From a virus: 33,784 nt of DNA. The notes beneath the pieces are model-generated. The model was not told the origin of the DNA. It worked only from the letters and a program-made list of their open reading frames with translations, and searched no databases. The stretch covers positions 1 to 33,784 of IMG/VR virus record IMGVR_UViG_3300005833_000033; one strand, 5' to 3'. A program made the position numbers and the translations under genes. Below are positions 13,985 to 30,082 of this stretch, piece by piece (position 1 is the stretch's first letter; each line of letters starts with the position of its first letter).

Positions 13985-14680
13985 TTACTTCTCCTTGACT
14001 GCGAAATTGGAAAGCCCGAGCGCGTCGATGACGTCGCCTTTGTAAATCTTGTTCCCGAAATGCCCGACGTTGACACTTGGGTCAAGCCAAGCCGTGAAGC
14101 CGAGCTCGGTCGCGTCGTTGAAGAACGCGACATCCTCGCCACGGGGGGTGCTGCGCGCCGTGCGATCGACCCGAAATACATCGGCGTACTCCAGGCCGTT
14201 CTGCTCGTCCTTGACGCGGGGCTTCGTCGCCGCCACCGCCTCCACGACCTTGCGGGACATGCAAGTGAACCCAATCGCCATGCTGTCGATGCGAACGCAA
14301 CCCGTCACGTTGTTCACTTCGACCTGGCCGGGTTCGCCAGCGAGATTGATGAGGTACTGCGGCGGGTCTTTCTTGAAGGGGTAGCTGGCGCCGACGCTAT
14401 CGAACACACCGGCGAAGCCAAGAATGCGGAAGAAATCGTCCGGAGTCCACACGATGTCGGCGTCGATCCAGAAAAGCCGGTCGCAGTCGCTCTTGAGGAA
14501 ACCCTCTACGATTGTTGAACGAGCCCACTGCACGACGGAGCACCCGACCGGGGCACCGATGCGGATTGATATACCCGCTTTATCAGCGGCCCGCACAGTC
14601 GCCAGGAGCGATACCGCCGTGGGCCAGGGGATGCTGCCCGGCCCGATCGGCATCCCGATCATGACTTTAGGCTGCGGCAT
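13985..14680 (-). CDS. GT-A fold glycosyltransferase, paralogue B (231 aa)
   Basis: I chose the ATG at 14680 because the first strand of the fold (PKVMIGMP) follows at once. The region further upstream in frame does not match the paralogue. A D-A-D motif in LFWIDADIVW (about residues 73-75) is the metal/nucleotide-sugar site expected of GT-A enzymes. Later elements are SVGASYPFKK, VTGCVRIDSMAIGF, and RGEDVAFFNDATELGFTAWL, with the catalytic-type E-D pair. It is homologous across its length to the next gene upstream, which suggests a tandem duplication. The genes overlap by 14 nt. The sugar donor and acceptor are unknown. Late expression and virion-gene neighbours favour a virion target. Confidence 0.75.
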   Translation of the reverse strand: MPQPKVMIGMPIGPGSIPWPTAVSLLATVRAADKAGISIRIGAPVGCSVVQWARSTIVEGFLKSDCDRLFWIDADIVWTPDDFFRILGFAGVFDSVGASYPFKKDPPQYLINLAGEPGQVEVNNVTGCVRIDSMAIGFTCMSRKVVEAVAATKPRVKDEQNGLEYADVFRVDRTARSTPRGEDVAFFNDATELGFTAWLDPSVNVGHFGNKIYKGDVIDALGLSNFAVKEK

Positions 14681-15401
14681 CGGCGCCCCCGAGGGCGGCC
14701 TGCGCACCACCACCACGGTAGATTTTGATCCCGACATGCCCGAGATCGAGCGTCGGGTCCAGCCAGACCGTGTAGCCGGCCTCACGAATGTCATCGAAGA
14801 ATTTCATATCTTCGCCGAGCCGGTGGTTGTTCGCCGTGCGCCCGAACTCGAAGACGTCGCGGATCTCGCCGCCGTTGGTGATGATTGTCGGCTTGGTCGC
14901 TGCGACCTTCTCGACGACTTCCCGCTTCATGCAGACGAAACCGAGACCGAGGCCGTCGACTTCCACCAGCCCATACGGATTCGGTGTGTTCCGCGGGTTG
15001 CGCAGCATGTAGCGCGGCGGCTCGACCTTCTGCGTGTACGTGGCGCCGACAACGTCGACCTGGGTGCACAGCGCGACGAGCTTGAGGAAGTCCGCCGGCT
15101 GCCAAAAAATATCGCTGTCAACGAGAAATAAGTGCGTTCCGTCACCCTTCAGAAACTTGTCGAGGATGGCGGAGCGCGCGTCGATGAGGATCGACGAACC
15201 GATCAAGTCGAGCAGGCGGACGTCAAAGCGCCGCTTGGCCAAGTCCCGCAGGGTGGTCGCCAAGGCGGCGGCCGTGGGGTACGGCAGAAAGCCGGTGTGA
15301 CACGGCATTCCGAGATCGACACGAAGTTTTTTCGGATCGACTTCAAACTGAAAGTTGGTAGACAGGTTCGCTCCTGAATTGATGGAGGCTGCTAGGCGCA
15401 A
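14667..15401 (-). CDS. GT-A fold glycosyltransferase, paralogue A (244 aa)
   Basis: The fold opens with KLRVDLGMPCHTG, and the D-S-D motif in LFLVDSDIFW (about residues 95-97) matches the nucleotide-sugar site. DVVGATYTQK, LGLGFVCMKREVV, and LGEDMKFFDDIREAGY followed by TVWLDP align with the second copy downstream. The start is uncertain: TTG at 15401 has AAGG about 9 nt upstream, no ATG or GTG occurs before the first strand, and the ATG at 15308 would remove that strand. A CTG with AGGAG upstream is a further possibility. It follows the small virion protein by 24 nt. The target is unknown; a role in modifying the particle or host glycan is an inference. Confidence 0.75.
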   Translation of the reverse strand: MRLAASINSGANLSTNFQFEVDPKKLRVDLGMPCHTGFLPYPTAAALATTLRDLAKRRFDVRLLDLIGSSILIDARSAILDKFLKGDGTHLFLVDSDIFWQPADFLKLVALCTQVDVVGATYTQKVEPPRYMLRNPRNTPNPYGLVEVDGLGLGFVCMKREVVEKVAATKPTIITNGGEIRDVFEFGRTANNHRLGEDMKFFDDIREAGYTVWLDPTLDLGHVGIKIYRGGGAQAALGGADAAA

Positions 15402-15425
15402 CCTCCGAAGCCTTACTGCGATGAC

Positions 15426-15893
15426 CTATGCGAGCGGCGTCACCTTATCGCCGGAGCAGCGAGTGCGCCCGAAGACGTACCAGGTGCCCGCAGCGCCGTC
15501 CACAAATTCGAGGAAGTCGCCGCCGAGCCCGCCGGTGGTGGTGATGTTGAGCGTGATCTGCGTGGCGTTGGTCGAGAACCAGGACGACGTATCGGATGCG
15601 ACCGCCGTGCTGTCCAGGGACTCGATCATGACGTTGAACACGCTGGCCGTGTTGACCAGTTGGAAGATGAGCGATCCCGACGTACGCGTCACGGTGTTGA
15701 GCACCTTGTACGAGTCCATCGAGCCGACGGCTTGCGGCAACTTGAGCGTCACCGCCGACGTCGCGAACCCGACCAGGATCAGCTTGTTCGCGTGTGTTTC
15801 CGCGGCAAGTTGAGTCGTGCCTGCGGCCGGCAAGGTGAGAACCTTGTCGCCTGCGTTGCCGGTGTCACCGGAGATTTGTGAGAGGCGAGACAT
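15426..15893 (-). CDS. Small virion / capsid-decoration-like protein (155 aa)
   Basis: The ATG at 15893 (MSRLSQISGD) has AAGGA 9 nt upstream; a longer frame from 15941 has no such site. The protein is beta-rich, with Thr/Ser/Ala strands (NAGDKVLTLPAAGTTQ, KLILVGFATSAVTLKL, NATQITLNITTTGG and TWYVFGRT). It is the first virion gene after the capsid, where decoration proteins often lie, so that role is likely but not proven. Its first 9 codons overlap the end of the homing endonuclease gene, and its ribosome binding site is inside that gene. Confidence 0.6.
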   Translation of the reverse strand: MSRLSQISGDTGNAGDKVLTLPAAGTTQLAAETHANKLILVGFATSAVTLKLPQAVGSMDSYKVLNTVTRTSGSLIFQLVNTASVFNVMIESLDSTAVASDTSSWFSTNATQITLNITTTGGLGGDFLEFVDGAAGTWYVFGRTRCSGDKVTPLA

Positions 15894-16368
15894 AATCTGT
15901 TTCCTTTTTGCGTAGATGGTATGCGTGGTTTCGTTCGGCAAGTACAGGCTTCATCGCTATATACGCAGCTTCGCACTTCCCGCATCGACACTTTTGCGCC
16001 ACCCACGTAGAGTAGAACCCGTGCCGACTTGAGCGACCAATCGTCGGAAGGCTCGCGTACTTCGCCAGCCAAACCTTCGCTTGTTCTTGCCGCCGGAAAC
16101 CGAGGAACTGAAACATCGCCACCACCATAGCGTAGGCTTTGTCCCGCTCCATCAATTTCCAAACGAACGCTTGCTTGTGATGAGGCTTCTCTTTCCTCTG
16201 CCCATCCCACAACCATCCGCCGAACATCCGGTGTGCTTTTTCCAGCACGTCACGGTCTGTCATCTTGATGGTTAGGCCGAGAGATTTCCGCCCTTTGCAG
16301 ATTTCGAAGTGACCTTCTCCTTCGAACAGCCCCGCAAACCACAACACGTTGTCGCGCGTCAACTGCAT
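15865..16368 (-). CDS. LAGLIDADG-family homing endonuclease (167 aa)
   Basis: The ATG at 16368 follows a very strong AGGAGG site; an open frame continues upstream but only as a shadow of the capsid gene. Residues 9-22 read LWFAGLFEGEGHFE, a clear LAGLIDADG motif with the conserved acidic end. The later FQFLGFRRQEQAKVWL (about 86-101) fits the family's recurrent hydrophobic then K/R-Q-A pattern. One clear motif is seen, so it may act as a dimer. The C-terminus adds HGFYSTWVAQKCRCGKC, a probable small zinc-binding module. It sits between the capsid gene and the next virion gene as a free-standing mobile gene that cuts intronless alleles. It ends 29 nt inside the next gene. Confidence 0.85.
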   Translation of the reverse strand: MQLTRDNVLWFAGLFEGEGHFEICKGRKSLGLTIKMTDRDVLEKAHRMFGGWLWDGQRKEKPHHKQAFVWKLMERDKAYAMVVAMFQFLGFRRQEQAKVWLAKYASLPTIGRSSRHGFYSTWVAQKCRCGKCEAAYIAMKPVLAERNHAYHLRKKETDYVSPLTNLR

Positions 16369-16474
16369 ATTTCCTCCTACGAAAGAGAAATCCGGTTTAC
16401 TACCTCGCGGAGAGCCGGCATCCGCTCCGTAGCCCACCCAAAGGTAGGTTAGGTAACTTGCTGAATTAGAAGTC
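16369..16474 (-). other. 106-nt gap between capsid gene and homing endonuclease
   Basis: No gene fits here. The only structure seen is a weak GCGGA/TCCGC pair and the strong AGGAGG site of the endonuclease at its left end. No T-tract terminator is visible, so the endonuclease is probably read through from the capsid gene. Confidence 0.4.
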
Positions 16475-17401
16475 TTACCCGGGCATAACGAGAGCCACGC
16501 CCCCTTTGTCATACGCTTCCGCCGTACCGTAGATCGTGTCCGCGGTGAGCAGAGTCGCCAGATACTCCTGCTTATACTGCGTCTGCACGCGCGGCCCGAG
16601 CACGTCCGCCAGGATGATCGCGTCCTGATGAGCCAGGAGCGCCACACGGGCGGTCGTCGCCGAAGTCGGCGTCGGGCAGTTGCTGGAGACGTTGACGGAC
16701 ACGCCGTACACGTCGCCGAGCTTGCCGTTGCGGATGGTCTTGCCGTCACCGACGAACGCCTGCTCGGTGAAGCGCGCGAGGCCCATCATGATCCTGCGGC
16801 CGACGGGCGGGATGACCAGGTAGCGATCTGCCATCGGAATGTCGTTGTCGTCGAGCACCTGGATCACGCGCCGGATGCCGGCGTCGGTGATCGCGGTCGC
16901 GTTCGCGTTGCCGGAAGCATCCACAAACGCGGTCGTGCCATCGCCAGCGATGACTCCGCCGGTCCACGTCGAAGCACCGTCGCCACCGTTCAGCGTGCGC
17001 GCCTGGTTGAACAGGCTGGAGTCTTTCTGCACCGACAGGGCATAACCCGCGTCGTCAGTGTAGAACTTGCGCATCGACTGCAGCGCGTGGCACTCGGCGA
17101 TGTCTTCGATCAACCGGCTGTACTCGAAGTGCGCGGTCAGGTTGATGACCACCGAGCTGCCGGACGCCGCAGCGATCGTGCTGACGATGGTGTTCGCCGC
17201 CTTGGCGCTCGCGGTGCCGCGGCTGGGTTTGGGCAGGGTGACGGAGTCGCCCTTCTTACCCTTGACGTTCAGCTTCCTGACGAGCGAAGCGAGGACGATG
17301 TTCTTTTTGTACGCGGCCTGGATTTCGTCCATCCAGAGATCCGGCACGAACCCGCTGGTTGCGAGGTCCGCGCTAACTACGTTTGAGCCACCGAAGGCCA
17401 T
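16475..17401 (-). CDS. Major capsid protein (HK97-fold-like)
   Basis: The 308-aa product starts MAFGGSNVVS behind AAGGAG. Its N-terminal region FVPDLWMDEIQAAYKKN, then LVRKLNVKGKKGDSVTLP, is the typical N-arm and first beta element of podoviral capsid proteins. The middle has the spine-helix region (RFTEQAFVGDG, then GKLGDVYGVSVNVSSN), and the C-terminus TADTIYGTAEAYDKGGV fits the P domain ending. It follows the scaffold gene, as expected, but with two glycan-type genes in between. It forms the head shell. A long frame downstream is not an extension of the capsid. Confidence 0.85.
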   Translation of the reverse strand: MAFGGSNVVSADLATSGFVPDLWMDEIQAAYKKNIVLASLVRKLNVKGKKGDSVTLPKPSRGTASAKAANTIVSTIAAASGSSVVINLTAHFEYSRLIEDIAECHALQSMRKFYTDDAGYALSVQKDSSLFNQARTLNGGDGASTWTGGVIAGDGTTAFVDASGNANATAITDAGIRRVIQVLDDNDIPMADRYLVIPPVGRRIMMGLARFTEQAFVGDGKTIRNGKLGDVYGVSVNVSSNCPTPTSATTARVALLAHQDAIILADVLGPRVQTQYKQEYLATLLTADTIYGTAEAYDKGGVALVMPG

Positions 17402-17591
17402 GTGTGTTACTCCTTGAAAAACGATTGAGGGGTTTTGGAAAAGCCACTGTCGCGGACGAAGAACTTTTGGCTGCTTTACGCAGAAGTTTCGTCAGAGATG
17501 CGCTTCTCCCTCAACGACAATCAAGGGGGCGGCACTAGGATGGACGCCGGGGCTGTGCGTGCCTTGCCCGACGCGGTACTACGATGTTCTA
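17402..17591 (-). other. 190-nt non-coding gap upstream of the capsid gene
   Basis: No protein-coding frame of quality lies here. On the minus strand the only clear element is the AAGGAG site of the capsid gene. A 4-bp CTGC/GCAG pair and an AAAAG/CTTTT pair are too weak to call. A capsid-specific promoter or an RNA processing site would be expected in such a gap, but I cannot identify one. Confidence 0.4.
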
Positions 17592-18278
17592 CTACTTCAT
17601 TATACCACGCACCGAAACGGCGTCATGCTCGGCGAACCACTCGGCCGCGTAGTCACAGTCCCGGTACGGCTCGAAATACGGGCCGCCGAGCGTGTAGTGG
17701 ACGATCTTCGCGCCTGGCGCGTAGGGATACTCGCCGACCAGCCAATTCCACTCCAGCGGCAGCTCGCCGATCTCGGCGTCGTCAAGCCATTTGAAGCGGT
17801 GCAGATCGAGGCCCGGTGCCGTATTGACGTAATCCGGCGTGAGCGCGCGGCATCGCGCATTGTTGAACACCATGAGGCTCGACCAGTTCTTGCGCGGGTA
17901 TTTCGTCTGCACGCGGTCAAGAAACTTGCGCTCGGTCTTCGGCACGTAGTCATGCTTGCACACGAGAACCGCCTTGTCCGCTTGACGCTCAATCTGCGCG
18001 GCCAATTGAGCAACGTCGACCCGGCAGAGCATGTCGCAGTCCATGAAGACCGACCAGCCGCTGTACCCCGAAAGCGAAGGTACTAGGAACCGCGTCAGAC
18101 TGAATTCCGTCGACTCGGTCGGCCCACGCAGACGTTTGTAGACCCCCTTCAACTGGCTCTGCATGACGGGCGCGATCGACACCGGAATCGACGAACGGCG
18201 CATGATCGAGTGCGCCAGGGTGTGATATGCAGCAGACTCAACCGGATCGTAGCCGACGTAAATCACGAGACCGAGCAT
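17592..18278 (-). CDS. Glycosyltransferase, GT8-like nucleotide-diphospho-sugar fold (228 aa)
   Basis: I chose the ATG at 18278 (MLGLVIYVGYDP) with AGGAAAGGG just upstream. A longer frame lies in the preceding gene. The D-C-D motif in VFMDCDMLC (about residues 80-82) marks the sugar-nucleotide site. Conserved elements include GPTESTEFSLTRFLVP before it, NWSSLMVFNN, and the C-terminal KIVHYTLGGPYF with a metal-binding-type His. The closest family resemblance is to lipopolysaccharide-type glycosyltransferases. It overlaps the MptE-like gene by 16 nt, so the two probably form a functional pair. The acceptor is unknown; capsid or scaffold neighbours make a capsid target plausible. Confidence 0.75.
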   Translation of the reverse strand: MLGLVIYVGYDPVESAAYHTLAHSIMRRSSIPVSIAPVMQSQLKGVYKRLRGPTESTEFSLTRFLVPSLSGYSGWSVFMDCDMLCRVDVAQLAAQIERQADKAVLVCKHDYVPKTERKFLDRVQTKYPRKNWSSLMVFNNARCRALTPDYVNTAPGLDLHRFKWLDDAEIGELPLEWNWLVGEYPYAPGAKIVHYTLGGPYFEPYRDCDYAAEWFAEHDAVSVRGIMK

Positions 18279-19045
18279 TTCGCCCTTTCCTGCAAAAACG
18301 GGCGCAACATCCCGTCCCCGTGAATTTTCACTTTCATGTGCGGGTGCTTGCACAGCACCTTCTCAGCCCAAAACGCCTGCCGGATGAGCAGGGTCGAGGT
18401 AATCCTCGGCACCCCCGCGACGATGATGTCGATGTATTCCGGCACCAGACCTTCGTGGGGGCCGGCGTGCGCCGACTTCTTGCTCCGCGCGCTGGCATCC
18501 ATCCCGAACCACTCCTGCTCCCGATAGCCGAAGGCGAAAGCTAGACGAGCCGCCGTGAGTCCGGCATCGAATGCCGCGGGCAACTTCAGATAGCGCGGGT
18601 CGTAGAACCTGCCATCTTCCAAGTCAACATGGAACAAACTGACACGTTGACCGACGAGCGCATCAAGATAGGACGGGTGCACTTGCGTCCCTATCAGGTA
18701 CTGCGTTTCCGGCCCGAAGCGTTTATTAAACTTCGCCTTGTGCTCCCGGTACTCCGTGTCCGTGTGGTGCGTCGGCACGACCCCCCGCTCGCGCAAGAAG
18801 TCGTGCGCCTTGGATGTCGTCCAGACCGCGTCGAAACCGCCGGTTGCGATCCCCTCCCACGTATCCACGAGAGAAGGGCCGTAGCCGACGATCGCCACCC
18901 GCCCCCGGAAACCGGAAGCAGGTTTCACGACGCTTGGGAACTCGCGGGCGCAGTTCACGCGCCTTTGACCCTCGACGATCTGCGACCCGCCGTCGAGATA
19001 GACCGGCCCCATTTCGAGGTCGATCGACCGCAGCAGTCCTTGCAC
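18263..19045 (-). CDS. MptE/DUF115-like protein (260 aa)
   Basis: After a short lead the sequence FRGRVAIVGYGPSLVDTWEGI (about residues 46-66) matches the glycine-rich nucleotide-binding start of the MptE-like/DUF115 family. Further segments are VWTTSKAHDFL, VPTHHTDTEYREH and a C-terminal GMDASARSKKSAHAGPHEG. Bacterial DUF115 proteins take part in flagellin or surface glycosylation, and archaeal MptE is a pterin pyrophosphokinase. The start is either GTG at 19045, overlapping the scaffold stop as TAGTG (used here), or ATG at 19012 with no ribosome binding site. A long upstream frame is a shadow of the scaffold gene. It is coupled to the glycosyltransferase that follows. Confidence 0.65.
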   Translation of the reverse strand: MQGLLRSIDLEMGPVYLDGGSQIVEGQRRVNCAREFPSVVKPASGFRGRVAIVGYGPSLVDTWEGIATGGFDAVWTTSKAHDFLRERGVVPTHHTDTEYREHKAKFNKRFGPETQYLIGTQVHPSYLDALVGQRVSLFHVDLEDGRFYDPRYLKLPAAFDAGLTAARLAFAFGYREQEWFGMDASARSKKSAHAGPHEGLVPEYIDIIVAGVPRITSTLLIRQAFWAEKVLCKHPHMKVKIHGDGMLRPFLQERAKCSVS

Positions 19046-20025
19046 TACTTGACCCGGCCTTCCTTGTAGGCCTGCCCGATCTCGTCCGCCATTTGCTCGT
19101 AACGACCCGGGTCGGTCTCCATCAAGCGGAGGACGTCCGCGCGCCGGAAGATTTTCTTCCCGGTGGTCGCCTGGCCTCCACCACCGGTGGGCGCCGCCAC
19201 CGCCGCGAGCGCCTTGGCCTTCTTCGCTGCCGCCAGGGCTCGGCCCGCGTCGGACGCCGTCTGTACGGCTGCTGCACTTTCCGCAGCTTCTGCTGCCGGT
19301 AACGCAGTAGTCGCGCTCCTGGCGCCTTTCAGTTCCTTCCAGGTGCTGAAAACCTCGTCGCCAGCGTCGAAATCGTACTGCGCATGCGCACGCTGCAGAA
19401 GCGCCTGCCGAACGCGCGACTTGCCGACCCACGCCTGGAACTCCGGGTCGCGCAGGGTCGCCTGCGCGTCCGGGTGAACCGCGTTGAACCGCTCAGCGGC
19501 GCGCGTGCGGCTTTCCACTTCGCTGTTCGCCGCGGTTTTACCCAGCGCGTCGCGGATTTCCTTGATGGCCGGATGCTCGGCGATCAGCCGGGCAATCGAC
19601 TCGACCGGCTTCGCGAAAACCGCACTGTCGTCGATCGGTTCCGACGCGACCTTCGCCGTAGCGGCAGGCTGCACCGCGCGCTGCGCTTGGATGTTCGCGA
19701 GGCTCGCCTGGATGAGCATGTCCGCCTTCTTGCGGAACTCGCCCAGTTCCGTGCCCTGACGCCCGATGAGGCTCTGCGCCTGACGGTGCATCTCGACCAG
19801 TTCTTTTGGCGACTTCCCTTTGTACTCGGGCGGGAGATCGTCCTCCGCGGCAGCGGCGGGTGCCGGCTTCGCTTTCGCCGGCGCCGTCTTAGCCGGTACG
19901 GCGCCGGCGTCGCTGCCTTCGCTGAGGTCGACGAGTTCTTCGCCCTCCCCGGCTACGACTTCGTCACCGAACAGCGCGTGTTCGTTGTCTTCCAACACTT
20001 TCGATTTTGCTTGGATTTCAGGCAT
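19045..20025 (-). CDS. Capsid scaffolding protein (326 aa)
   Basis: The 326-aa protein has the composition of a scaffold: acidic, Ala-rich and helical. A Pro/Ala/Lys linker spans about residues 42-60, followed by DLPPEYKGKSPKELVEMHRQ and a heptad helix. The C-terminus (IFRRADVLRLMETDPGRYEQ, then IGQAYKEGRVK) resembles the small helix-turn-helix that binds capsid subunits in podoviral scaffolds. It precedes the capsid gene, as expected, and AAGGA lies before its ATG. It guides procapsid assembly and leaves before DNA enters. Confidence 0.8.
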   Translation of the reverse strand: MPEIQAKSKVLEDNEHALFGDEVVAGEGEELVDLSEGSDAGAVPAKTAPAKAKPAPAAAAEDDLPPEYKGKSPKELVEMHRQAQSLIGRQGTELGEFRKKADMLIQASLANIQAQRAVQPAATAKVASEPIDDSAVFAKPVESIARLIAEHPAIKEIRDALGKTAANSEVESRTRAAERFNAVHPDAQATLRDPEFQAWVGKSRVRQALLQRAHAQYDFDAGDEVFSTWKELKGARSATTALPAAEAAESAAAVQTASDAGRALAAAKKAKALAAVAAPTGGGGQATTGKKIFRRADVLRLMETDPGRYEQMADEIGQAYKEGRVK

Positions 20026-20061
20026 TGCTTTTTCCTTCGCTCAAGGGGGCAATTAAAGGGT

Positions 20062-20093: not shown

Positions 20094-20127
20094 GGTGCGG
20101 GCTAAAATGTTGGGTATAACTAACTTC

Positions 20128-20766: not shown

Positions 20767-23193
20767 TTAGAGTTGCTGGACGACTTGCGCTGCCGGCCGC
20801 GCCGGGATGATGACCGGCACCGGCACAGGACGCACTTCTTGGCTGGTTTTCGCGACACGCTGCGCGCCGTCGGCCTTGATGCGCTCGGCGTGGTTCTTCA
20901 CTTGCTGCGCTGCGACCGCCGCGCCCGCCTTGGTGCGCTCCGCCGCGTGCGCACCGCGCGCCCGAACCGCTTCAGTCGCCACGCTGCCGACGGACTTCAC
21001 CTTCTCCGCGGCCACGCTCGCCCCGGACTGCATACGGGCGATGCGCTCGTTGGAGTCGATGTCCTTGGCTTTCAGGATGCGATCCGCCACCGCCATGCGG
21101 CGGTCGAACTCGGCGGACTGCTGCGCCTGCTGGACCTCGTAGATGCCCTTGGTGGCGATCTCCATCGACTTGTACATCGGCTCGCGCGCCTCGTTGGCCG
21201 CCTTCGCGTCTTGCAGGCGGGTGCGGGCGCCGAGCTCGGCGATCTTCGCCTGGCCTTCGGCGATCTGAAGCTGCGCCGCCGTCTGAGCCATTTGCGTCTG
21301 CAGCGCTTGCATCTGCGGATCGCCTTGCTGCTGCGCCGCGGCGGATTCGAGTTGCTGCGCACTCGCGATTGACTCACTGAGCATTTTCATAAGTTCCAGG
21401 CGGTTCGACAGGCCCGTATTCGAGATGATGCCCATCAACAGGATCTTGTATTCCTTGCTCTCAGGCTGCATCGACTGCAGGAGCTGCACGAGAATCTGGT
21501 TCTCGTACTCCCGCTGCAAGATGCCCATCGTCGATGACGCGATAAACGTGAAATTGACCGGGGTGTAGCGCTCCGGATTAAACTGCATGTTGCGCCAGAG
21601 CATTTTGCGCAGGCACGGCACAAAGAAGCGGTCGACGAAGTTCATCAACGTGCGCTTGTGCCGCTTGACGATGCCCGAGAGCATCATCGACACGGCGCCG
21701 GGCCGCGCATCCCCGCCGCGCGAGGCGAGCGCAATCACGTCGAGGGAGCCCGTGGCGCGCTGGATCATCTGGTCGAGCTGTTGCGAGTGCTGGAACGTGG
21801 TCGCGTCGAGCTGCCCGAAATTCATCGGGTTGAGAATAGTCTTCGGATCGCCGTTCGTGAGGATCGACTTGCCCGGCTTCACCGTGAGTTGGAAGCCGCG
21901 CGGCAGCCGCGAAGCATCCATTGCCATCATCGGTGCGTTGGTGAACGCGAGCGCGTCGATTCGGCTGCGCAGTTCGGCGTCGAGCACCTTTTGCGGGACG
22001 AGGCCCTTCTCGCAGACACCGCGACCCCAAAAACGGCCCGGCACGATGTCCCACGGGAACGCCACGACCGGGCGATCCTTCATCACGTAGGGGGATTCGC
22101 CCGCCTTGATGACCACGGACTCGTTCGCGATGAAAACTTGCGCCTCGACCATCTCGGAATCGACCGGCTCGACGGATTTTTCACCGGATTTAGCGGTTTC
22201 ACCCGCTGCCGAAGGCTCAGCAGCTTTTTCACCAGGCGCTTCCTTGGCGAACAGGTCAACGACCTCCTCGCCGCCCTCATCCGCGCCGTCTTCGTCGTCT
22301 TTCGGGAGTAAATGCGACGGCACGAGCCCGTAGTAGCGGATGATGTGCACTTTATCGTACACATATTCGTTCTCGATCTGCCGATCGGCGCCGAGTTCCA
22401 TGTCGCCAGCGCTCGTCTTGACGTCAACCTCGCGATAGAGGCCCTTTTTCTGACCCATCTTGACGACGTGGGCACCGACATACTCTTCGACCGCCACGCC
22501 GAGGGCGCTGTCGACGGTGCGCGCCGTCGGTTCGATCAGGAAATTGCGCGGGTTCACGCTCTGCAGGTACGAGAAGTGGACTTCCTTCTCCTCGACTTGC
22601 ATCGTCGGCGCTTCGGGCTGCTCCATCCCCGCCATCGCCTGCTGCACCGCGAACACAATATCACGCTTGATGAACGTGTCGACGAAGATTTCGCCGATTC
22701 CCGAGCCGTACACCGCGGCGTTGATGAGCGCCTCGCCGATGTTCGGCGTGAAATTCTGGCTCGACAGGTCTTCCTTTAGATAATTCTTGTTCTGGTCCGT
22801 GATTTGTTTCAACAGCGCAGGGTCTTCGATCTGCGCCTTGATGTCGAAGAAATCTCCGCGGCCAAAGAGCGCCTCCTCGACCTCGGCGACGATGTTCTCG
22901 ACAGCCTCCGCCGTCGCAGGCGTGACGAGCGTGGACTTCTCCGACTTGCGGCCCTTGTCTTCATTCGCCCACAAGCCGCGCCAGATGCGCTCGTACTGAT
23001 CCCAGGCGGGTTCATAGTTCTGGCGCCGGTGGTCGCGCCACTTGCGCACGCGGCCGATGACCCAGGCGCGGAGTTCTTCGAGCTCGTCCTTGTTCTCTTT
23101 ACCCGGGACGGCTTCGCGCTGGTCGCGCGGATCGTCGGCGAGCACTTTTGCTTTTTCAGCGATTAGCCCGGACTTCAAGGTGATTTCAGCCAT
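20767..23193 (-). CDS. Portal protein (808 aa, P22-like)
   Basis: The 808-aa protein directly follows TerL and has the size and order of podoviral portals. An N-terminal helical region contains VRKWRDHRRQNYEPAWDQYERIW split over residues 49-71. The core holds NIGEALINAAVYGSGIGEIF (about 151-170), the clip/stem region has FPWDIVPGRFWGRGVCEKGL, and RATGSLDVIALASRGGDARPG precedes a long C-terminal region. The last about 180 residues are Gln/Ala-rich helices that may form the barrel inside the head. Residues about 298-348 are an acidic, Ala/Glu-rich insert that looks disordered. The portal is the dodecameric DNA entry ring. The ribosome binding site is weak, so translation may depend on the upstream gene. 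Confidence 0.85.
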   Translation of the reverse strand: MAEITLKSGLIAEKAKVLADDPRDQREAVPGKENKDELEELRAWVIGRVRKWRDHRRQNYEPAWDQYERIWRGLWANEDKGRKSEKSTLVTPATAEAVENIVAEVEEALFGRGDFFDIKAQIEDPALLKQITDQNKNYLKEDLSSQNFTPNIGEALINAAVYGSGIGEIFVDTFIKRDIVFAVQQAMAGMEQPEAPTMQVEEKEVHFSYLQSVNPRNFLIEPTARTVDSALGVAVEEYVGAHVVKMGQKKGLYREVDVKTSAGDMELGADRQIENEYVYDKVHIIRYYGLVPSHLLPKDDEDGADEGGEEVVDLFAKEAPGEKAAEPSAAGETAKSGEKSVEPVDSEMVEAQVFIANESVVIKAGESPYVMKDRPVVAFPWDIVPGRFWGRGVCEKGLVPQKVLDAELRSRIDALAFTNAPMMAMDASRLPRGFQLTVKPGKSILTNGDPKTILNPMNFGQLDATTFQHSQQLDQMIQRATGSLDVIALASRGGDARPGAVSMMLSGIVKRHKRTLMNFVDRFFVPCLRKMLWRNMQFNPERYTPVNFTFIASSTMGILQREYENQILVQLLQSMQPESKEYKILLMGIISNTGLSNRLELMKMLSESIASAQQLESAAAQQQGDPQMQALQTQMAQTAAQLQIAEGQAKIAELGARTRLQDAKAANEAREPMYKSMEIATKGIYEVQQAQQSAEFDRRMAVADRILKAKDIDSNERIARMQSGASVAAEKVKSVGSVATEAVRARGAHAAERTKAGAAVAAQQVKNHAERIKADGAQRVAKTSQEVRPVPVPVIIPARPAAQVVQQL

Positions 23194-23198: not shown

Positions 23199-24554
23199 TT
23201 AAATCCCGATGGACGCATCCGTCGGCTCCCAGTAACTTTCATCCGAAACGTGCGCAAACCGCTGGAACACACGCGACTCAGCGAGCTGCACGATGTACGC
23301 CAGAGCGTCAGGCGCGTCATCATGAACCAACGTCGAGGGGAAATTCACGAACTGGTCCTCGACTTCCTTCATGCTCGACATCCCGCGGCGGTACAGAATC
23401 TTCCCGTGCTCCATCCGCCCCTGCAACGCCCAGCCGATGCGCTGGTCCTTTGCCGTGTTCTCATGCGACAATGGCTCGACCACCAGCGACATCGCGGGCC
23501 GACGCCGCGCGGCTTCGGCTTCGAGATACGGGGCGACCGCGTTGAATAGCGCCCCCTTCTCCATGCCAAGGTTCATCGTCTTACAACTCGCGACGGCATC
23601 AACAATTCGCCGCGCCGTTTCTTCCACACCCCAGCGCCCGAGGTAGACATCGCGCACGTACCAGCGCTCATCGTCCAGCACCTTGACGACTGCGATCGCA
23701 GTCTTGTCCAGGCGCTTCTGCCGGTAGCCCGACGCCTTCTTCACTTCAGCGAAACCGGCGAGATCCGCGGTAACGTACCAGTCGCCGGGGATGACCGTCT
23801 TTTTCCCCTTCGCGTCCAGCTCGAAGGGCTCCTCATCTACATACTTGAACCACTCCATCAGGAAGCTGCCGCTGCCGCCGGTCTCGAAGCTGGCGAGGTA
23901 CTCTTGGCGGAACAGCCAGGAAGGCAGTGTATTCTTCGCGTTCTCTATCTCGTTCATATCGAGGAACGGATTGTCGAGCGACGTGAAGTGGAACGCGGCC
24001 CAATCCGGGTCGTAGTCCGGGGAGTCAGGATCGAGCCCGGCGCGCATCCACAAATCGAAGAAGTGGTTGCGGCCTTTCGGCGTGCCGATGAACCCGGCCG
24101 TTCCCTTCACGTCCGTCAGCGCGGGACGGATGATCGCCTCCCACGTCTCAACTTTCATGTCAGCAAATTCGTCCATCTCGACATGCCAGAAGCCGAGGCC
24201 GCGCAGTGTGTCGGGACGATCCGAGCCCTTGACGCCTATCATCACCCCGTTCGCAAGATAGATGTGGCCCTCGTTCGCCTGCGGCGGCCGGCGCGGGTCG
24301 AGAACCGGGTGCAGCATCGCGAGCAGCTCCTGCCAGTACAGCAATTTCGCCTGCGTCGCGATCGGCGCGATGATGAACACCGGCTTCTTCTGAAGGTTGC
24401 GCGGGTCGAGCGCCTTGACCGCGGCGCGCACCGTCGCCAACCGGGTCTTGCCGAAGCGTCGACCCGCCGTCAGCACAGTAAAGCGCTTGGGCGAACTGAA
24501 GACTTCCATCTGCGCCGCGTGCAGGCGGAAATCGAGGGTGACGCCTTCGCTCAC
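23199..24554 (-). CDS. terL: Terminase large subunit
   Basis: The 451-aa protein carries all main motifs. The Walker A-like TAGRRFGKT lies at about residues 29-37, Walker B HVEMDE at about 125-130, and the coupling motif GFIGTPKGR at about 155-163. The nuclease acidic clusters lie at VTADLAG (about 262-268) and HDDAPDALAYI (about 412-422). It packages DNA using ATP and cuts the concatemer. The start is GTG, overlapping the upstream stop as GTGA, with GAGGAG almost adjacent, so it is likely translated by coupling. The portal follows after 5 nt. The terminase-small candidate is 4.4 kb upstream. Confidence 0.92.
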   Translation of the reverse strand: MSEGVTLDFRLHAAQMEVFSSPKRFTVLTAGRRFGKTRLATVRAAVKALDPRNLQKKPVFIIAPIATQAKLLYWQELLAMLHPVLDPRRPPQANEGHIYLANGVMIGVKGSDRPDTLRGLGFWHVEMDEFADMKVETWEAIIRPALTDVKGTAGFIGTPKGRNHFFDLWMRAGLDPDSPDYDPDWAAFHFTSLDNPFLDMNEIENAKNTLPSWLFRQEYLASFETGGSGSFLMEWFKYVDEEPFELDAKGKKTVIPGDWYVTADLAGFAEVKKASGYRQKRLDKTAIAVVKVLDDERWYVRDVYLGRWGVEETARRIVDAVASCKTMNLGMEKGALFNAVAPYLEAEAARRRPAMSLVVEPLSHENTAKDQRIGWALQGRMEHGKILYRRGMSSMKEVEDQFVNFPSTLVHDDAPDALAYIVQLAESRVFQRFAHVSDESYWEPTDASIGI

Positions 24555-25071: not shown

Positions 25072-25086
25072 TGCTCGCTCCTTCGG

Positions 25087-25284
25087 TTAGTGAAACTGCG
25101 CGTCGACAAGCATCTGCGCCGCGTACTCATAGATATCAAGACGAAGCTCGCCGTCCTTCAGGACCAAGTTGCCGATCACCTGGCCGCCCGAAGTGCGGAG
25201 CTCGCGCCGGCCTTTACCCTCGCCGAATACCACCTTCTTCACGGACTCATCGCCCAGGCGCAGATCGAAAACGAAACGGCTCAT
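25087..25284 (-). CDS. Small hypothetical protein (65 aa)
   Basis: I chose the ATG at 25284 (MSRFVFDLRLGDES), which overlaps the previous stop by 4 nt. A much longer frame upstream is an arginine/proline-rich shadow of neighbouring genes. The product alternates short beta strands (SVKKVVFGEG, QVIGNLVLKDGELRLDIYEY) and ends in a helix. This is compatible with a small beta-barrel or fibre-base piece. No family was recognised. Confidence 0.6.
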   Translation of the reverse strand: MSRFVFDLRLGDESVKKVVFGEGKGRRELRTSGGQVIGNLVLKDGELRLDIYEYAAQMLVDAQFH

Positions 25285-25529
25285 GCGTAAGCGTACGGGG
25301 TGACGATGTTCTGCTTGACGATGTAGTCGTAGCGCGGTGCGGCGCGCCGGGCCGCGCCACGCGCATCGCGGGCGTACACGGCTAGGGCGTACAGCGTCTT
25401 GTCCAAGCGGTTGCGAAAACGCAGCCCCTCCTCGGGGAACAGGACGACACTGACCACCGCAGGGCCGGCAGCGCCCGCCTGCTGCTGGTAGCCTGGAAGC
25501 TGAAATGTCGGGTGCCGCTGGAACGCCAT
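25281..25529 (-). CDS. Hypothetical protein (82 aa)
   Basis: An 82-aa protein starting MAFQRHPTFQLPGYQQQ. It has an Ala/Gly/Val-rich hydrophobic stretch (GAAGPAVVSVVLFP, about residues 19-32) and an arginine-rich helical part (VYARDARGAARRAAPR). The start follows the methyltransferase stop by 3 nt. I cannot name a family; it may be a minor structural piece. Confidence 0.55.
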   Translation of the reverse strand: MAFQRHPTFQLPGYQQQAGAAGPAVVSVVLFPEEGLRFRNRLDKTLYALAVYARDARGAARRAAPRYDYIVKQNIVTPYAYA

Positions 25530-25532
25530 GCC

Positions 25533-26096
25533 CTACTTTCGTTTGGTCAAGGTCGCGATGATGTCCTGGGCCGCATCCTTGAAGTTCGCGATCGCGTGCT
25601 GCCGGTACTCCTCGTTGCGCACCAGCAAGTCCTGGCGCAGCGAGTACCCGAAGGTCGAGTCGAAGTCGCAGGTGTAGAAATCGTTGTGCGGGGCGTTGCC
25701 GTCGCGCCACGACTTGTTCAGGTAGAAGAACCACATCTCCGACACGGGCGGCCATTGGTGCGTGAGGTCGCCGTACGCGCGGTGCGAGTTCCAGTGCGGC
25801 ACGATGACCTGCGCCGTGCCGCCGGGGATCAACACCCGGTACAACTCGTTGACGAAATGCACGCGCTCCATCGCCGTCAGGTGCTCGACAAAGTGCGAGC
25901 TGTGGACTTCCGCGACCGAGGCGTCTTTCCACGGCCAGGGCTTGCGCAGATCGACGACTTGGTCAACCTTCCCGTCGAACTGACGAGAGTCCACACCGCG
26001 GAAACCCTCACGCTTGTTCGGGCCGCAGCCGAGATCCAGCTTCAGCGGTGTCGCTGTGTCCGGGGTTTTCTTTACTCGTCGCTCCGCTCGATTCAT
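25533..26096 (-). CDS. SAM-dependent methyltransferase (187 aa)
   Basis: The ATG at 26096 (MNRAERRVKK) has GGGAG 6 nt upstream. The S-adenosylmethionine motif I reads KLDLGCGPN (about residues 19-27), an acidic motif II follows (RGVDSRQFDG), and motif IV/V-like HSSHFVEHL (about 65-73) and VLIPGGTAQVIVPHW are present. This is a class I methyltransferase of the type 11 group. Target residues cannot be told. It overlaps the upstream glycosyltransferase at its start region (the stop of that gene is at 26108), so the two are probably coupled in one pathway, for example methylation of a transferred sugar. Confidence 0.75.
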   Translation of the reverse strand: MNRAERRVKKTPDTATPLKLDLGCGPNKREGFRGVDSRQFDGKVDQVVDLRKPWPWKDASVAEVHSSHFVEHLTAMERVHFVNELYRVLIPGGTAQVIVPHWNSHRAYGDLTHQWPPVSEMWFFYLNKSWRDGNAPHNDFYTCDFDSTFGYSLRQDLLVRNEEYRQHAIANFKDAAQDIIATLTKRK

Positions 26097-26107
26097 TTCG
26101 CTCCCCT

Positions 26108-26824
26108 CTACCAACAAACGTCGTTCACGGCGTCGTAATGACCGACCAGCACACCGCAGTCAACGGCGCAGCGATAACCGTGTTTCCGGGCGTCACTCCA
26201 GAAATGCAGGTCCTGCGTGCCGACGCCTTCCGCCAAACTCGCCACCGTGCGAAACCACGGCTTGCGCAGCTTCGCGTCCTTGAACATCTTCAGGCGCCAG
26301 AGGTTGAACCCCATGCCCGTGCCGCAGCACTCAACCAGTTGCCCCGGCACCGGCGGTTGCGGACGGAAATTCAGGACCGGGTCTTTCGGGTCGCCCCATA
26401 TCTGCGGCACCCCGCCCTCGCCCTTCGTCCAGTACAGTCCACCGATGCACGCGAACTCCGGGTGCGCCTCCATCTGCGCAATCAGCTTCAACACGCCGTC
26501 GGCCGGCGGCACGTTGTCGTGCTCAACGGTCAACAGATACTCCCAGGTCGACAGTTCCGGGTGCACAAGGATCGCCTCGATCGCCTGCGAGTACGCCTCG
26601 CCGACTTCCATCCCCAGCGCGCCCCACCAGACGTTCGCCTGGTTCGGCGGAAAGATGAGACTTCGCATCGCGAAGAACACCTTCGAGGGGATGCTCGGCC
26701 CGGCAGGCAGAATCACAACGACACGCTGCTTCTTCCAACTCGCGCCGATCATGACGCGCGAGGCCGACTTCACAAGATCCGCGTTGTGACGGCCCGCGTC
26801 GGTGCTGACGAATTGCGGTTTCAA
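26108..26824 (-). CDS. Glycosyltransferase, GT2-like (238 aa)
   Basis: The preferred start is TTG at 26824, which overlaps the previous stop as TTGA; the first ATG (26752) would cut into the N-terminal strand and lacks a ribosome binding site. The nucleotide-sugar region reads RVVVILPAGPSIPSKV (about 34-49), then LLTVEHDNVPP with the E-H-D-N acidic motif (about 101-104). Further elements are GTGMGFNLWRLKMF (about 168-181) and GTQDLHFWSDARKHGYR. A long upstream frame is a shadow. It is followed by a methyltransferase after 11 nt. The sugar and acceptor are unknown. Confidence 0.75.
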   Translation of the reverse strand: MKPQFVSTDAGRHNADLVKSASRVMIGASWKKQRVVVILPAGPSIPSKVFFAMRSLIFPPNQANVWWGALGMEVGEAYSQAIEAILVHPELSTWEYLLTVEHDNVPPADGVLKLIAQMEAHPEFACIGGLYWTKGEGGVPQIWGDPKDPVLNFRPQPPVPGQLVECCGTGMGFNLWRLKMFKDAKLRKPWFRTVASLAEGVGTQDLHFWSDARKHGYRCAVDCGVLVGHYDAVNDVCW

Positions 26825-27216
26825 ATAATCCCGCCGACGTTGAAGTTCGAGAAGCCGACGACGTTGAAGATGAAGCTCCAGCCGACGCTCTGCGTAGCCG
26901 AGCCTGTCACCCGCACGAGAATGTCCGTGCCGGATATAGTGAACGTCGCATCCCAAGCCGCCGCCGCGACGTCTTTCCGCGCGGCGAACACGTTGATGAT
27001 GCCGGCCGGGACCGCCGTGAGGACCCCGCCGATGTTCTTCACCTGGCCTCGCACTTCCCACATCGCCGAGGCACCGTCCGTGAGGCCGCGCGCCAGGACG
27101 CCGAGGATCACCGAAGCGGTATTGCCATCGGGAATGTTGATAGACGCGGCAGTGACGACCGTCGCGTTGAGCGTAATCAGGTCCGGATCGCTGTTGAAAG
27201 ATTGGTTCGTAATCAT
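26821..27216 (-). CDS. Small beta-rich fibre-like protein (131 aa)
   Basis: The 131-aa protein is beta-rich: LITLNATVVTAASINIPDG, then MWEVRGQVKNIGGVLTAV, and AWDATFTISGTDILVRVTGSATQSVGW. The last pattern is typical of small phage fibre-end or receptor-region domains. It overlaps the fibre gene by 4 nt (ATGA), so it probably forms part of the same appendage. Receptor binding is an inference. Confidence 0.55.
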   Translation of the reverse strand: MITNQSFNSDPDLITLNATVVTAASINIPDGNTASVILGVLARGLTDGASAMWEVRGQVKNIGGVLTAVPAGIINVFAARKDVAAAAWDATFTISGTDILVRVTGSATQSVGWSFIFNVVGFSNFNVGGII

Positions 27217-28919
27217 AAGAGGTTCGTCCCTGTCGTGTAGCCGCTGAAATTGAAATACGGAATAGTGATGACCGGCGAGCCCCGGATGTCGCTCACGCTC
27301 AAAGCGATCGTCGCGGGGAACGCACCGGAGGTTGCGCTATACGTTCCGTCGCCGGGCCATGTCGGGAACACGCTCGCGTTGCTCGCGGCGCTTGACGTGC
27401 CGAAGGGCCGGTACGCGATGTTTGCTCCATTCGTCTGTTGCAGCACGGACTGCTGGATTACACCGATCGCGTTCGATGATGCCGTCGACTGCGCCACCGC
27501 CATCCAATAACGGCCCGGCGTGAGCATCGAACTGATCGGCATCGGGACCATCCGGTAGCCGCCGACGCTGTTCAGCAGATACGTTGATGCGTTCGACGAA
27601 CTGATGACTCCGTTGCTCGTCGTCGAGACCGCGGTGCTGTTGCTGATCCCAATCGGGTGCGTCACTCGAACCTGCGTGTTCGAGCTGTTGCTCATACGGA
27701 TAAACCACGAGCCGGACCAGAACGTCCCAATTCTCTCCGTGGACGCACCCGTGCCGCGCGAGTACAGCGCCGCGCTGAACGTGAGTCCCGCGCTATTCGT
27801 ACTATTCGACGCCTGCAGAACCGTTGCGATCGAGTGAAAGAAATTCACCCGGTACGCACTCAAATCCTGCGGCACATCGAACCCGACAAAGTACAGCGTA
27901 TTCTGACCAAGAGTCAGGTTGCTGAGTAAGGACGACCCGAAGATCGGCTCCATCTCAGACGCAGTGGCGTTGAGCGCCACGCTCGCCGTCATCACCCCGT
28001 TCGTGTTCAGCCCGAACGAGACGCCGTTCGAGTTGGAGAAGTTGACCGTGCCCGTGTTCTGCGAATTTGTACCACCCGAGATCGCAGCGCCCCCACCCGC
28101 GCCCGGCGCTGCGACCGAGATCGCGAGACCATTAGAATTCAGAGTGATGCTGGCGTTGGTCGCCGACGTGCCGGTGCCTGCGTAGCCCGCGGCATTGAAC
28201 GACAGCCCGGCAGAGTTCACCGTCCAGGTGACATTCGTCTGCGCGGTATTCAGCCCGACGGCATCGTTGCTGGCCCGGGCGGTGGTGAGCCCGTTATGGC
28301 TGGCCGTGATCTGCGTCGAACCAGACATCCCGAACGTGATGCCGTTCGAGTCGGCGAACACGACGGTTGTGTTCGTACCTGCAGTCTGCGTGCCGGCGGC
28401 GAGGCGGTTGAAGCCGTCGCCACCGCCAGCCGCCGCCGTGAGATACGCCGGCACAGCAAGCAGCAGCCCGTCAGTGTTATGCGTGCCGGCGACGACGCTG
28501 CCTGCGATCGTCGTGGTGGTGAAACCCGATCGCGGAATGTTCCCCGAGGCTTGGGTCTGCACCGTCTGCGCGGCGTAGGTCGTGATGTAGGCCGGGACGC
28601 CAAGGGAAAGCCCGGCGCTGTTGTGCGTACCCTTAACATCGACGCCAGCGGTAGTCGTCGACGTGAACCCGGCGCCCGCGATGTTCCCTGACGCCTGCGT
28701 CTGCACGCTCTGCGTCGGCACCGTGTAGCTTGCCGTCAGCTTGCCCGCGCTGTCCCCGAAGCTGATCCCGTTGGCGTTGCTGAAGGCACCACTAATCTCC
28801 GCCGCCGACACGAGCGCAACCATGATGATGTGCGCCGAGTTCCAGTGTTTCGGCTGGATCTCTGCGGCAGGATCGTCCGGCGTGGTCGCCGTGAGCTCGT
28901 GGTAGGCGGTGGCGCCCAT
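27213..28919 (-). CDS. Tail fibre protein (568 aa)
   Basis: The N-terminus reads YHELTATTPDDPAAEIQPKH, then WNSAHI, the standard opening of a widespread podo/siphoviral fibre type. A repetitive shaft follows: SNANGISFGDS, then copies such as ADSNGITFGMS and SNSNGVSFGLN, and VQTQASGNI repeated at about residues 71 and 119. The C-terminal half (about 340-568) is Ser/Asn-rich and beta-like, with a G-x-Y-x-M-P cluster, and likely includes the receptor-facing part. It overlaps the next small gene by 4 nt and follows the terminase-small candidate. It acts as a host-recognition appendage. Confidence 0.8.
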   Translation of the reverse strand: MGATAYHELTATTPDDPAAEIQPKHWNSAHIIMVALVSAAEISGAFSNANGISFGDSAGKLTASYTVPTQSVQTQASGNIAGAGFTSTTTAGVDVKGTHNSAGLSLGVPAYITTYAAQTVQTQASGNIPRSGFTTTTIAGSVVAGTHNTDGLLLAVPAYLTAAAGGGDGFNRLAAGTQTAGTNTTVVFADSNGITFGMSGSTQITASHNGLTTARASNDAVGLNTAQTNVTWTVNSAGLSFNAAGYAGTGTSATNASITLNSNGLAISVAAPGAGGGAAISGGTNSQNTGTVNFSNSNGVSFGLNTNGVMTASVALNATASEMEPIFGSSLLSNLTLGQNTLYFVGFDVPQDLSAYRVNFFHSIATVLQASNSTNSAGLTFSAALYSRGTGASTERIGTFWSGSWFIRMSNSSNTQVRVTHPIGISNSTAVSTTSNGVISSSNASTYLLNSVGGYRMVPMPISSMLTPGRYWMAVAQSTASSNAIGVIQQSVLQQTNGANIAYRPFGTSSAASNASVFPTWPGDGTYSATSGAFPATIALSVSDIRGSPVITIPYFNFSGYTTGTNLL

Positions 28920-29558
28920 TTAGGCGGGTAGCACTTTCAGTTGTGGTGTGACGTCAGTGAACTCGCCCTCATGCACCGGGCCGACGGGCGCCGCCGGAAC
29001 TGCGGGTAGCACGTTGACGATGAACTGCGGCCGCGCATCGCGCAGCGCGCCGACACCCGCGGCTTCGCCACCGAGCTCCTCATACAGCTTCCGGGGGAGG
29101 ACGCGCTGCAGCGTGAATTCGAGCGCCCACGAGTGCAGTTCGTGATCCGGGTCTTCGACATACTCGGCCAGTCGTGCCAGCGCGCTCGCGGCCAGGTCGT
29201 TCAGCACCTGACTGCCAGCCTTCAGGGCACGTGCCACATCGAGCTTCGCCGCGGTCTTCAGTTCCTTGCGCTTATCCTCCGGGGATCCCGCTTTCGCGGG
29301 TTCGGTGGGCGCAGGGAGAAGCCCGGCCTCGATCAGCTTGCGCCGCGCGTCGTATGCGGCCTTGCGCTTCTTCTCGCAAGCCAGGCACGACTGGCCGTGC
29401 GCTTGATACACCTTCTGCTTGTTGATCTTGTAGACCCACGTCTCCGGGGTCATCGCCTTCGTGTCGCCGCACTTCACGCACTGGCGCTGCTCAGGTATGA
29501 GCGGCGCTTGCGCCGGAACGGCGGGCGCGGCCGTCGTGCTGAATTCTGGCACGATCAA
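28920..29558 (-). CDS. Terminase small subunit candidate with zinc-finger N-terminus (212 aa)
   Basis: Residues 27-61 form a probable zinc finger (CVKC at 27-30, CLAC at 58-61) followed by a basic stretch. A long helical part (about 95-155, with LKTAAKLDVARALKAGSQ) and the C-terminal ARPQFIVNVLPA resemble some small terminases, with DNA-binding head, oligomerising helices and a beta tail. The start is TTG at 29558, overlapping the methyltransferase stop as TTGA, with no clear ribosome binding site; GTG at 29552 is an alternative. The role is inferred. An alternative is another DNA-binding protein. It is near the start of the operon, as small terminases often are, but 4.4 kb from TerL. Confidence 0.5.
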   Translation of the reverse strand: MIVPEFSTTAAPAVPAQAPLIPEQRQCVKCGDTKAMTPETWVYKINKQKVYQAHGQSCLACEKKRKAAYDARRKLIEAGLLPAPTEPAKAGSPEDKRKELKTAAKLDVARALKAGSQVLNDLAASALARLAEYVEDPDHELHSWALEFTLQRVLPRKLYEELGGEAAGVGALRDARPQFIVNVLPAVPAAPVGPVHEGEFTDVTPQLKVLPA

Positions 29559-30082
29559 GCTAAAGGTTTGCGCAGGAGAACGCCGAGATGATGCGCGGGC
29601 GCGCCGGCAAAGTCGGCGCGCACGACGTCAAAGTTGAGCTTCCAGTACCAACGGTAGTCGGCGGCGGACGTGCCCTTGGCTTCTTGCTCCGCGTACCAGG
29701 CTTGGTTCAGAAAGAGAAAGTGGTTGAGGCCGAAGAACCGCGTGTGACCCGGGTCGGCGAAGTGGTCGGCGCCGACGGGCACGACCGCTGCGAACTCGCC
29801 GCCGGGTTTCAAGAGGCGATGGTATTCCGCCATCTCGTCGAACCACGCGCGCCAGTCGCCCTGCGCGCCCCAATGCTCCAGGCAGTCGTAGGCGTGGATC
29901 TCGTCGAAGGTCTCGTCGGCGAAGGGCAGCGGTCGCTGGCCGCAGTCGTGGATGACGTCGACGCCGGCGTCCGGGTTGATGTCTACGGTGACGAGCTCAC
30001 CGTCCCATTCGCTGCGCCCGGGCAGGAACAGCTTCTTGGCACGGCTGCGCCCTGACGCCAGCAAAAGATTCGATCGCCCCAC
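29555..30082 (-). CDS. SAM-dependent methyltransferase (175 aa), first gene of late operon
   Basis: This 175-aa protein belongs to a phage methyltransferase type. It opens with LLLASGRSRAKKL in place of a full glycine-rich motif I, then GELVTVDINPDAGVDVIHDC (about residues 28-47), PLPFADETFDEIHAYDCLEH (about 51-70), and LKPGGEFAAVVP. The motif I start is shortened, with LLLASG where LLIGCG is usual, so its cofactor binding should be checked. The start is GTG at 30082 with a G-rich site just upstream. It is the first gene after the late promoter and is coupled to the next by TTGA. The target is unknown. Confidence 0.75.
   Translation of the reverse strand: MGRSNLLLASGRSRAKKLFLPGRSEWDGELVTVDINPDAGVDVIHDCGQRPLPFADETFDEIHAYDCLEHWGAQGDWRAWFDEMAEYHRLLKPGGEFAAVVPVGADHFADPGHTRFFGLNHFLFLNQAWYAEQEAKGTSAADYRWYWKLNFDVVRADFAGAPAHHLGVLLRKPLA

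Follow-up and report, generated by a model that had tools for sequence, protein, structure and literature searches.

Glycosylation of virion proteins is an established kind of modification, and virion decoration as such is not new. As described in two papers (PMC12363180, PMC11600133), virion proteins are glycosylated in the mycobacteriophages Che8, Corndog and Myrna (Freeman et al., 2023, cited therein), and in cluster O mycobacteriophages three tandem glycosyltransferases (GTs) are encoded downstream of an O-methyltransferase, with capsid and tail tube being modified. In the virus STIV the protein A197 is essential and the coat protein is glycosylated, possibly by A197 (PMC10551542). Here we analyzed the IMG/VR virus record IMGVR_UViG_3300005833_000033, a linear sequence of 33,784 bases and probably a fragment, which over its whole length is referred to as the window. 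Its late genes are accompanied by four GTs (GT1 to GT4), an MptE/DUF115-like protein (MptE in the following) and two S-adenosylmethionine (SAM) methyltransferases (MT1 and MT2). These seven enzymes probably serve a late, virion-directed glycosylation and methylation, arranged in cassettes that would combine a substrate with its enzymes.

All seven enzymes are encoded by open reading frames (ORFs) that translate cleanly and lie on the minus strand (Table 1), which they share with the genes of the large terminase (TerL), portal, scaffold and major capsid protein (MCP), as an initial annotation of the window had proposed for seven glycan- and methyl-transfer genes at these positions. Also the overlaps by which it considered several pairs to be coupled are present, with 16 bp between MptE and GT3 and 14 bp between GT2 and GT1. 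Further overlaps of 4 bp each join the gene at 26821 to GT4 and MT2 to the gene at 28920, and 11 bp separate GT4 from MT1 in the window. The late operon is read from high to low coordinates in the order MT2, the 28920 gene, the fibre at 27213, the small gene at 26821, GT4, MT1, a short gene, TerL, portal, a small gene, scaffold, MptE, GT3, MCP, a LAGLIDADG-like ORF, the gene at 15426, GT2, GT1, the gene at 13687 and a fibre at 12366. From MT2 to GT4 consecutive genes abut or overlap by 4 bp.

Compared with Che8, Corndog and Myrna, the locus is alike in its several phage-encoded GTs, which act there, together with an O-methyltransferase, on virion proteins and are linked here by gene neighbourhood to surface proteins. 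The mycobacteriophage GTs form a tandem array with capsid and tail tube as targets. In the window, by contrast, the GTs are distributed over cassettes, beside a fibre with repeats and a small protein encoded next to the capsid gene, and a DUF115/Maf-like enzyme is added. In a tblastn search of GT1, GT3 and GT4 against phage records, made without a profile comparison with Che8 gp110 or Corndog gp38, no mycobacteriophage was among the matches listed. The number of GTs, which had been regarded as unusual, has precedents in the cluster O phages with their three tandem GTs and in the phage record ctKR88, with several GTs and two methyltransferases.

That four of the enzymes are GT-A-like glycosyltransferases is borne out by folds, family matches and intact putative catalytic motifs. 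GT1 and GT2 also match phrog_12406, which is labelled 'glycosyltransferase', and a GT1/GT2 profile built from seven members retrieves STIV A197 (PDB 2c0n) at 1.3e-7. GT4 is barely visible by sequence (phrog_1574, 3e-4), and its AlphaFold model (58 sequences, pLDDT 87.8) has 2c0n as clear top match (Foldseek 2.9e-10; Z 19.1, root mean square deviation 2.3 over 170 residues). The next matches are the collagen GTs LH3/ColGalT1 and Mimivirus R699 (Z 14-16.5), and the polymer GTs TarP, SpsA and chondroitin synthases also resemble GT4 at lower Z. The phrog_28018 family of GT3 has no assigned function; in named phages, several relatives of GT3 are annotated as glycosyltransferase or nucleotide-sugar transferase. 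Profiles of GT3 and GT4 gave nothing reliable when searched against PDB sequences. Altogether GT1, GT2, GT4 and GT3 belong to or lie close to phrog_1574, phrog_12406 and phrog_28018, of which the first and the last carry no function in the library.

With roles assigned by position, the GT1 set has the invariant residues D73/D75/D183/H207, representing a DxD-type metal motif, the catalytic Asp and a C-terminal His. In the GT4 set the corresponding invariant residues are E101/D103/D205/H229, where ExD replaces DxD, and in the GT3 family D80/D82/H194 are invariant. Both features of A197-like viral GT-A enzymes, a fold nearest to 2c0n and a DxD-type motif with Asp and His, were thus found. A197 is the nearest solved structure to GT4 and a sequence relative of GT1 and GT2, but it belongs to an archaeal tailless virus, and a fibre/methyltransferase cassette beside A197 is not described in the literature examined. 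The collagen GTs rank next after A197 for the GT4 fold, whereas neither collagen repeats nor a hydroxylase were recognised in the window. MT1 and MT2 both exceed the curated Pfam cut-off of Methyltransf_11 (21.2 bits), in agreement with their earlier assignment as SAM methyltransferases. An NCBIfam scan gave sub-threshold methyltransferase matches only, and PADLOC assigned no defence family to any of the seven enzymes.

The clearest linkage was obtained for the cassette of the 27213 fibre, GT4 and MT1 (cassette A). From IMG/VR, 200 confirmed relatives of GT4 were retrieved, the best 80 having 63-76% identity. Of 81 loci, 67 have a fibre homologue directly upstream of GT4 at a distance of no more than 300 bp (76 loci having at least 700 bp upstream). 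An MT1 homologue follows directly downstream, no more than 200 bp away, in 70 of the 81, and 25 loci share the same 7-bp overlap of GT4 and MT1. To exclude plain descent of whole genomes, the six genes before and seven genes after GT4 were clustered for 71 non-duplicate loci. A methyltransferase was found in the flanks of all 71 (67 at position +1), while every other non-fibre family occurred in at most 12 of them and 388 of the 464 clusters were singletons. When the search was started from fibres alone, counting only loci in which 1.5 kb or more follow the fibre, GT4 was present in 51 of 52 loci and GT4 together with a methyltransferase in 50 of 52; this search is partly dependent, as 13 of the 52 contigs, judged by name, had already been seen via GT4, some others are near-duplicates and the query was built from GT4-linked fibres. 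Despite this dependence, fibres without GT4 are rare.

The members of this cassette are conserved to different degrees, the mean identity across phages being ~69% for GT4, ~53% for MT1 and ~25% for the fibre C-terminus. Their pairwise identities correlate over 64 loci (r 0.41 for GT4-MT1, 0.27 for GT4-fibre and 0.17 for MT1-fibre), and none of 500 permutations reached any of these values. Ser, Thr, Gly, Ala and Asn are abundant in the fibres, and NG[IV][ST]FG-like motifs are ~200 times commoner in them than in other ORFs, a contrast that comes partly from the definition of the fibres. The contrast between GT4 and fibre identities would be best accounted for by a strongly conserved enzyme that works on a repeat shared by the fibres, while their tips diverge. 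GT4 would transfer a host-made nucleotide sugar to the upstream-encoded repeat fibre, most plausibly to Ser/Thr of the repeats, and MT1 may methylate the added sugar or the same fibre protein. Among 84,980 cellular species genomes GT4 was found on one 4.6-kb contig, and this rarity fits a function for the phage rather than a change of the host surface during lysogeny.

Cassette B consists of the 15426 protein with GT2 and GT1, to which MT2 may be added. Among the 78 loci from which the GT1/GT2 relatives were drawn, 55 have a 15426 homologue upstream of the GT1-type gene (at -1 in 43 and at -2 in 12). The preceding gene is the window-type MCP in 20 loci and a different protein, resembling another capsid, in 16, as read by eye from the sequence. 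An MT2-type methyltransferase stands immediately before the GT in eight loci, and MT2 relatives occur either directly before GT1-type genes or adjoining GT4/MT1. A reverse search with single 15426 queries returned eight loci only, mostly on contigs already known, the 15426 alignment being very diverse, and the reverse linkage of cassette B is weakly supported. By analogy to the fibre, GT2/GT1 with MT2 would modify the small Thr-rich 15426 protein.

In cassette C, MptE precedes GT3. For GT3 66 viral relatives were found, and 27 of them have an MptE-type gene on the same locus, abutting or overlapping GT3 in several. The neighbours of GT3 include proteins resembling head-tail adaptor, stabilisation, capsid and portal proteins as well as a collagen-like fibre. 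MptE matches PF01973 with 1.4e-5 and 25.4 bits, under the curated cut-off of 34.6 that several relatives pass. The model (pLDDT 87.3) is closest to the Maf flagellin glycosyltransferase 5mu5 (Z 21.4 over 216 residues), with lesser matches to archaeal MptE/HPPK 8sd5 (Z 15.5) and sialyltransferases (Z ~10), so that the MptE/DUF115-like assignment holds by fold while missing the PF01973 cut-off. In difference to Maf (632 amino acids), the phage protein comprises the core domain only (260 amino acids). No MptE relatives were found in named phages by tblastn. The second-best fold match, together with the MptE name of the Pfam family, would also agree with a pterin pyrophosphokinase of folate or nucleotide metabolism instead of a glycosyltransferase. 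For MptE this is rather unlikely, as Maf is clearly closer than 8sd5 and the relatives are encoded next to GTs and occur as fusions with methyltransferases, namely with Methyltransf_23 and an FkbM methyltransferase, plus a weak C-terminal 2OG-oxygenase match below the Pfam cut-off. The Maf/sialyltransferase-like MptE and GT3 may modify another capsid-associated protein.

Near GT3, three phage proteins of ~890-900 amino acids (L005:3646-6318, L045:143-2833 and L059:6661-9375; locus and positions) combine MptE-like, Methyltransf_23 and FkbM domains. Such a protein is possibly an all-in-one modification enzyme, and the one in L005 adds the weak C-terminal 2OG-oxygenase match. At a further locus a collagen-repeat fibre (L019:3108-4124; PF01391, 3e-28) is encoded close upstream of an MptE-GT3 pair, a candidate for collagen-like glycosylation in phages. 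A collagen-type hydroxylation/glycosylation pathway, prompted by the 2OG-like fusions and the collagen-like fibre near GT3 relatives, was considered and rejected for the window, where neither was recognised.

In complete genomes such genes likewise stand among the late virion genes, in other combinations. The podovirus record ctKR88, a complete genome of 42.6 kb, encodes MCP, a large fusion protein of GT type, two further GTs, a fibre-MT-GT4-MT block, adaptor and stabilisation proteins, and ctDrO704 has MCP, a TPR protein, an FkbM methyltransferase, GT3 and stabilisation. In ctTUS972 the coat protein is followed by a small gene, a methyltransferase, an A197-like GT and the tail adaptor, and ctkAd229 carries a GT at the same position. 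A megablast of the region against named phages gave no match. The positions of the enzymes shift even among close relatives (loci L068, L069, L148 and L150). The seven genes had initially been described as a single distributed system; instead, there are at least three separable cassettes, each of which is acquired, lost and relocated independently of the others. The pN/pS values against close relatives range from 0.31 (GT4) to 0.62 (GT2) for the seven enzymes, compared to 0.24 for MCP and 0.50 for the portal. The fibre and the 15426 protein have higher values of 0.73 and 0.85, respectively. All seven enzymes are under purifying selection, and the presumed substrates diverge.

From computed folds, intact motifs, purifying selection, gene linkage and the near-absence of GT4 from cellular genomes we infer enzymatic activity, the identity of the acceptors and of the sugar, methylation of the glycan and a benefit, which may lie in the stability of the particle or fibre or in altered adsorption. 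Virion decoration, as the initial annotation had proposed, remains the best reading. Its support now goes beyond the position in the operon, since across unrelated phages the enzymes keep company with particular genes for surface proteins; these conserved cassettes are the strongest evidence and had escaped the initial annotation. The idea of one system did not stand, and nothing here supports the suggested purpose of immune or receptor-based defence. Several points weigh against virion decoration. A GT fold by itself would be no proof of activity, and gene linkage need not make the neighbour the acceptor. Donor-sugar genes were not recognised, and the donor must therefore come from the host. 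A 15426-like gene is lacking in about 30% of the GT1/2 loci (e.g., L254, L255). Of 78 MCP relatives (51-58% identity) none has a 15426-type protein or any of the enzymes, though several of these contigs are short, and given these relatives the modification is dispensable for the capsid type of the window. The assumption that every small beta protein beside a GT is an acceptor was abandoned and kept for the fibre and the 15426 protein only, since the linkage of the 26821 and 13687 proteins is confined to close relatives.

The strongest rival explanation is that the enzymes modify the host envelope (lipopolysaccharide, capsule or S-layer) during the late phase of infection, either to exclude superinfecting phages or to release progeny from receptors, the fibre linkage then reflecting a match between receptor and masking enzyme. 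It has a low but real probability, as the fibre is usually the receptor-binding part, so that a receptor-modifying enzyme could travel along, and as GT4 also resembles, at lower Z, the polymer GTs. However, a receptor-matched enzyme should diversify alongside the fibre, whereas GT4 keeps ~69% identity against ~25% for the fibre C-termini. GT4 is also nearly absent from cellular genomes, prophages included, and the link of cassette B to a capsid-adjacent protein does not suit an action on the envelope. Hallmarks of serotype-converting gtr systems (flippase, bactoprenol GT, integrase) were not found among the proteins scanned of the incomplete window, and the context is that of a late operon.

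The variable positions in close relatives and the 78 enzyme-free MCP relatives would agree with moron cargo that hitch-hikes in tolerant gaps of the late operon and has no virion function. This is quite improbable, because unrelated flanks with constant partners (71 of 71; 51 of 52) are not expected of random cargo, and purifying selection and invariant catalytic residues argue in the same direction. Glycosylation or methylation of phage DNA bases as hypermodification against restriction is very unlikely, even though phage GTs do modify DNA (PMC12619734) and a Lar-like anti-restriction gene makes restriction relevant for the window. The proteins nearest in fold are A197 of a virus, collagen GTs and Maf, the genes sit in virion cassettes away from replication genes, and base-modification genes were neither recognised in scans of the window nor annotated in the complete ctKR88. 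Their absence from the window had been noted before and is correct as far as recognised genes go, but it is a weak claim for a linear record that is probably a fragment and in which no replication genes were recognised.

Table 1. Late genes of the window discussed in the text, with the evidence for each assignment.
Feature	Coordinates	Strand	Evidence
Small beta-rich protein after GT1	13687..13989	-	linked to GT1 in close relatives (L247-L250, L253-L256)
GT1, A197-like glycosyltransferase, cassette B	13985..14680	-	phrog_1574, 2e-21
GT2, A197-like glycosyltransferase, cassette B	14667..15401	-	phrog_1574, 3e-22
Small Thr-rich protein after MCP, decoration-like; proposed GT2/GT1 acceptor	15426..15893	-	linkage to GT1-type genes
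Major capsid protein (MCP)	16475..17401	-	phrog_267, 1e-30
GT3, glycosyltransferase-like, cassette C	17592..18278	-	phrog_28018, 7e-48
MptE/DUF115-like protein, Maf/sialyltransferase-like fold, cassette C	18263..19045	-	Z 21.4 to Maf 5mu5
Scaffold protein	19045..20025	-	gene order; conserved between portal and MCP in relatives
Portal protein	20767..23193	-	phrog_1216
Large terminase (TerL)	23199..24554	-	phrog_2
MT1, class I SAM methyltransferase, cassette A	25533..26096	-	Methyltransf_11, 25.0 bits
GT4, A197-like GT-A glycosyltransferase, cassette A	26108..26824	-	AlphaFold model, fold match, invariant residues
Small beta-rich protein between fibre and GT4	26821..27216	-	no family match; 4-bp overlap with each neighbour
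Repeat fibre, NG[IV][ST]FG-type repeats, divergent C-terminal domain; proposed GT4/MT1 acceptor	27213..28919	-	linkage to GT4
MT2, class I SAM methyltransferase	29555..30082	-	Methyltransf_11, 27.1 bits; linkage

Some further features of the window were observed. The LAGLIDADG-like ORF between the MCP gene and 15426 resembles a free-standing homing endonuclease (15940-16420, minus strand, inside ORF 15865-16749) by a match to PF14528 that is below the cut-off (0.005). Upstream of the late operon, a perfect 23-nt inverted repeat with a 4-nt loop and TGTCGA-type repeats (30623-30672) may serve as a terminator or an operator where two blocks of genes diverge. On the plus strand, the Lar restriction-alleviation-like protein is encoded at 824-1348 (PF14354, 8e-9), a Lar-like gene being annotated in ctKR88 too, and a small protein at 1353-1577 has a RyR domain match just over the Pfam cut-off. 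At 33587-33784 (plus strand) a 21-nt tandem repeat encodes a heptapeptide of the NVSNLRG type, in an ORF that continues past the end of the record.

The near-obligate cassette of fibre, GT and methyltransferase and its capsid-adjacent counterpart, both found in phages that are otherwise unrelated, appear to be new, and a literature search among open-licence papers found no paper describing such a cassette. Going beyond virion-directed modification in the window, we tentatively propose that a phage-only GT/MT pair is the near-obligate partner of one class of NG[IV][ST]FG-repeat fibres in many unrelated tailed phages. The repeat would be a dedicated scaffold for modification, the cassette would be passed on as a unit with a parallel capsid-associated cassette beside it, and the fibres may form a widespread, so far undescribed class of glycoproteins.

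Only few phage glycoproteins are known so far. If the cassette rule holds, the glycosylated virion protein of a phage would be predictable from sequence. It would also provide a function for phrog_1574, phrog_28018 and an unnamed fibre family, and, given the 200 GT4 relatives in IMG/VR, glycosylation of fibres would be common in environmental phages.

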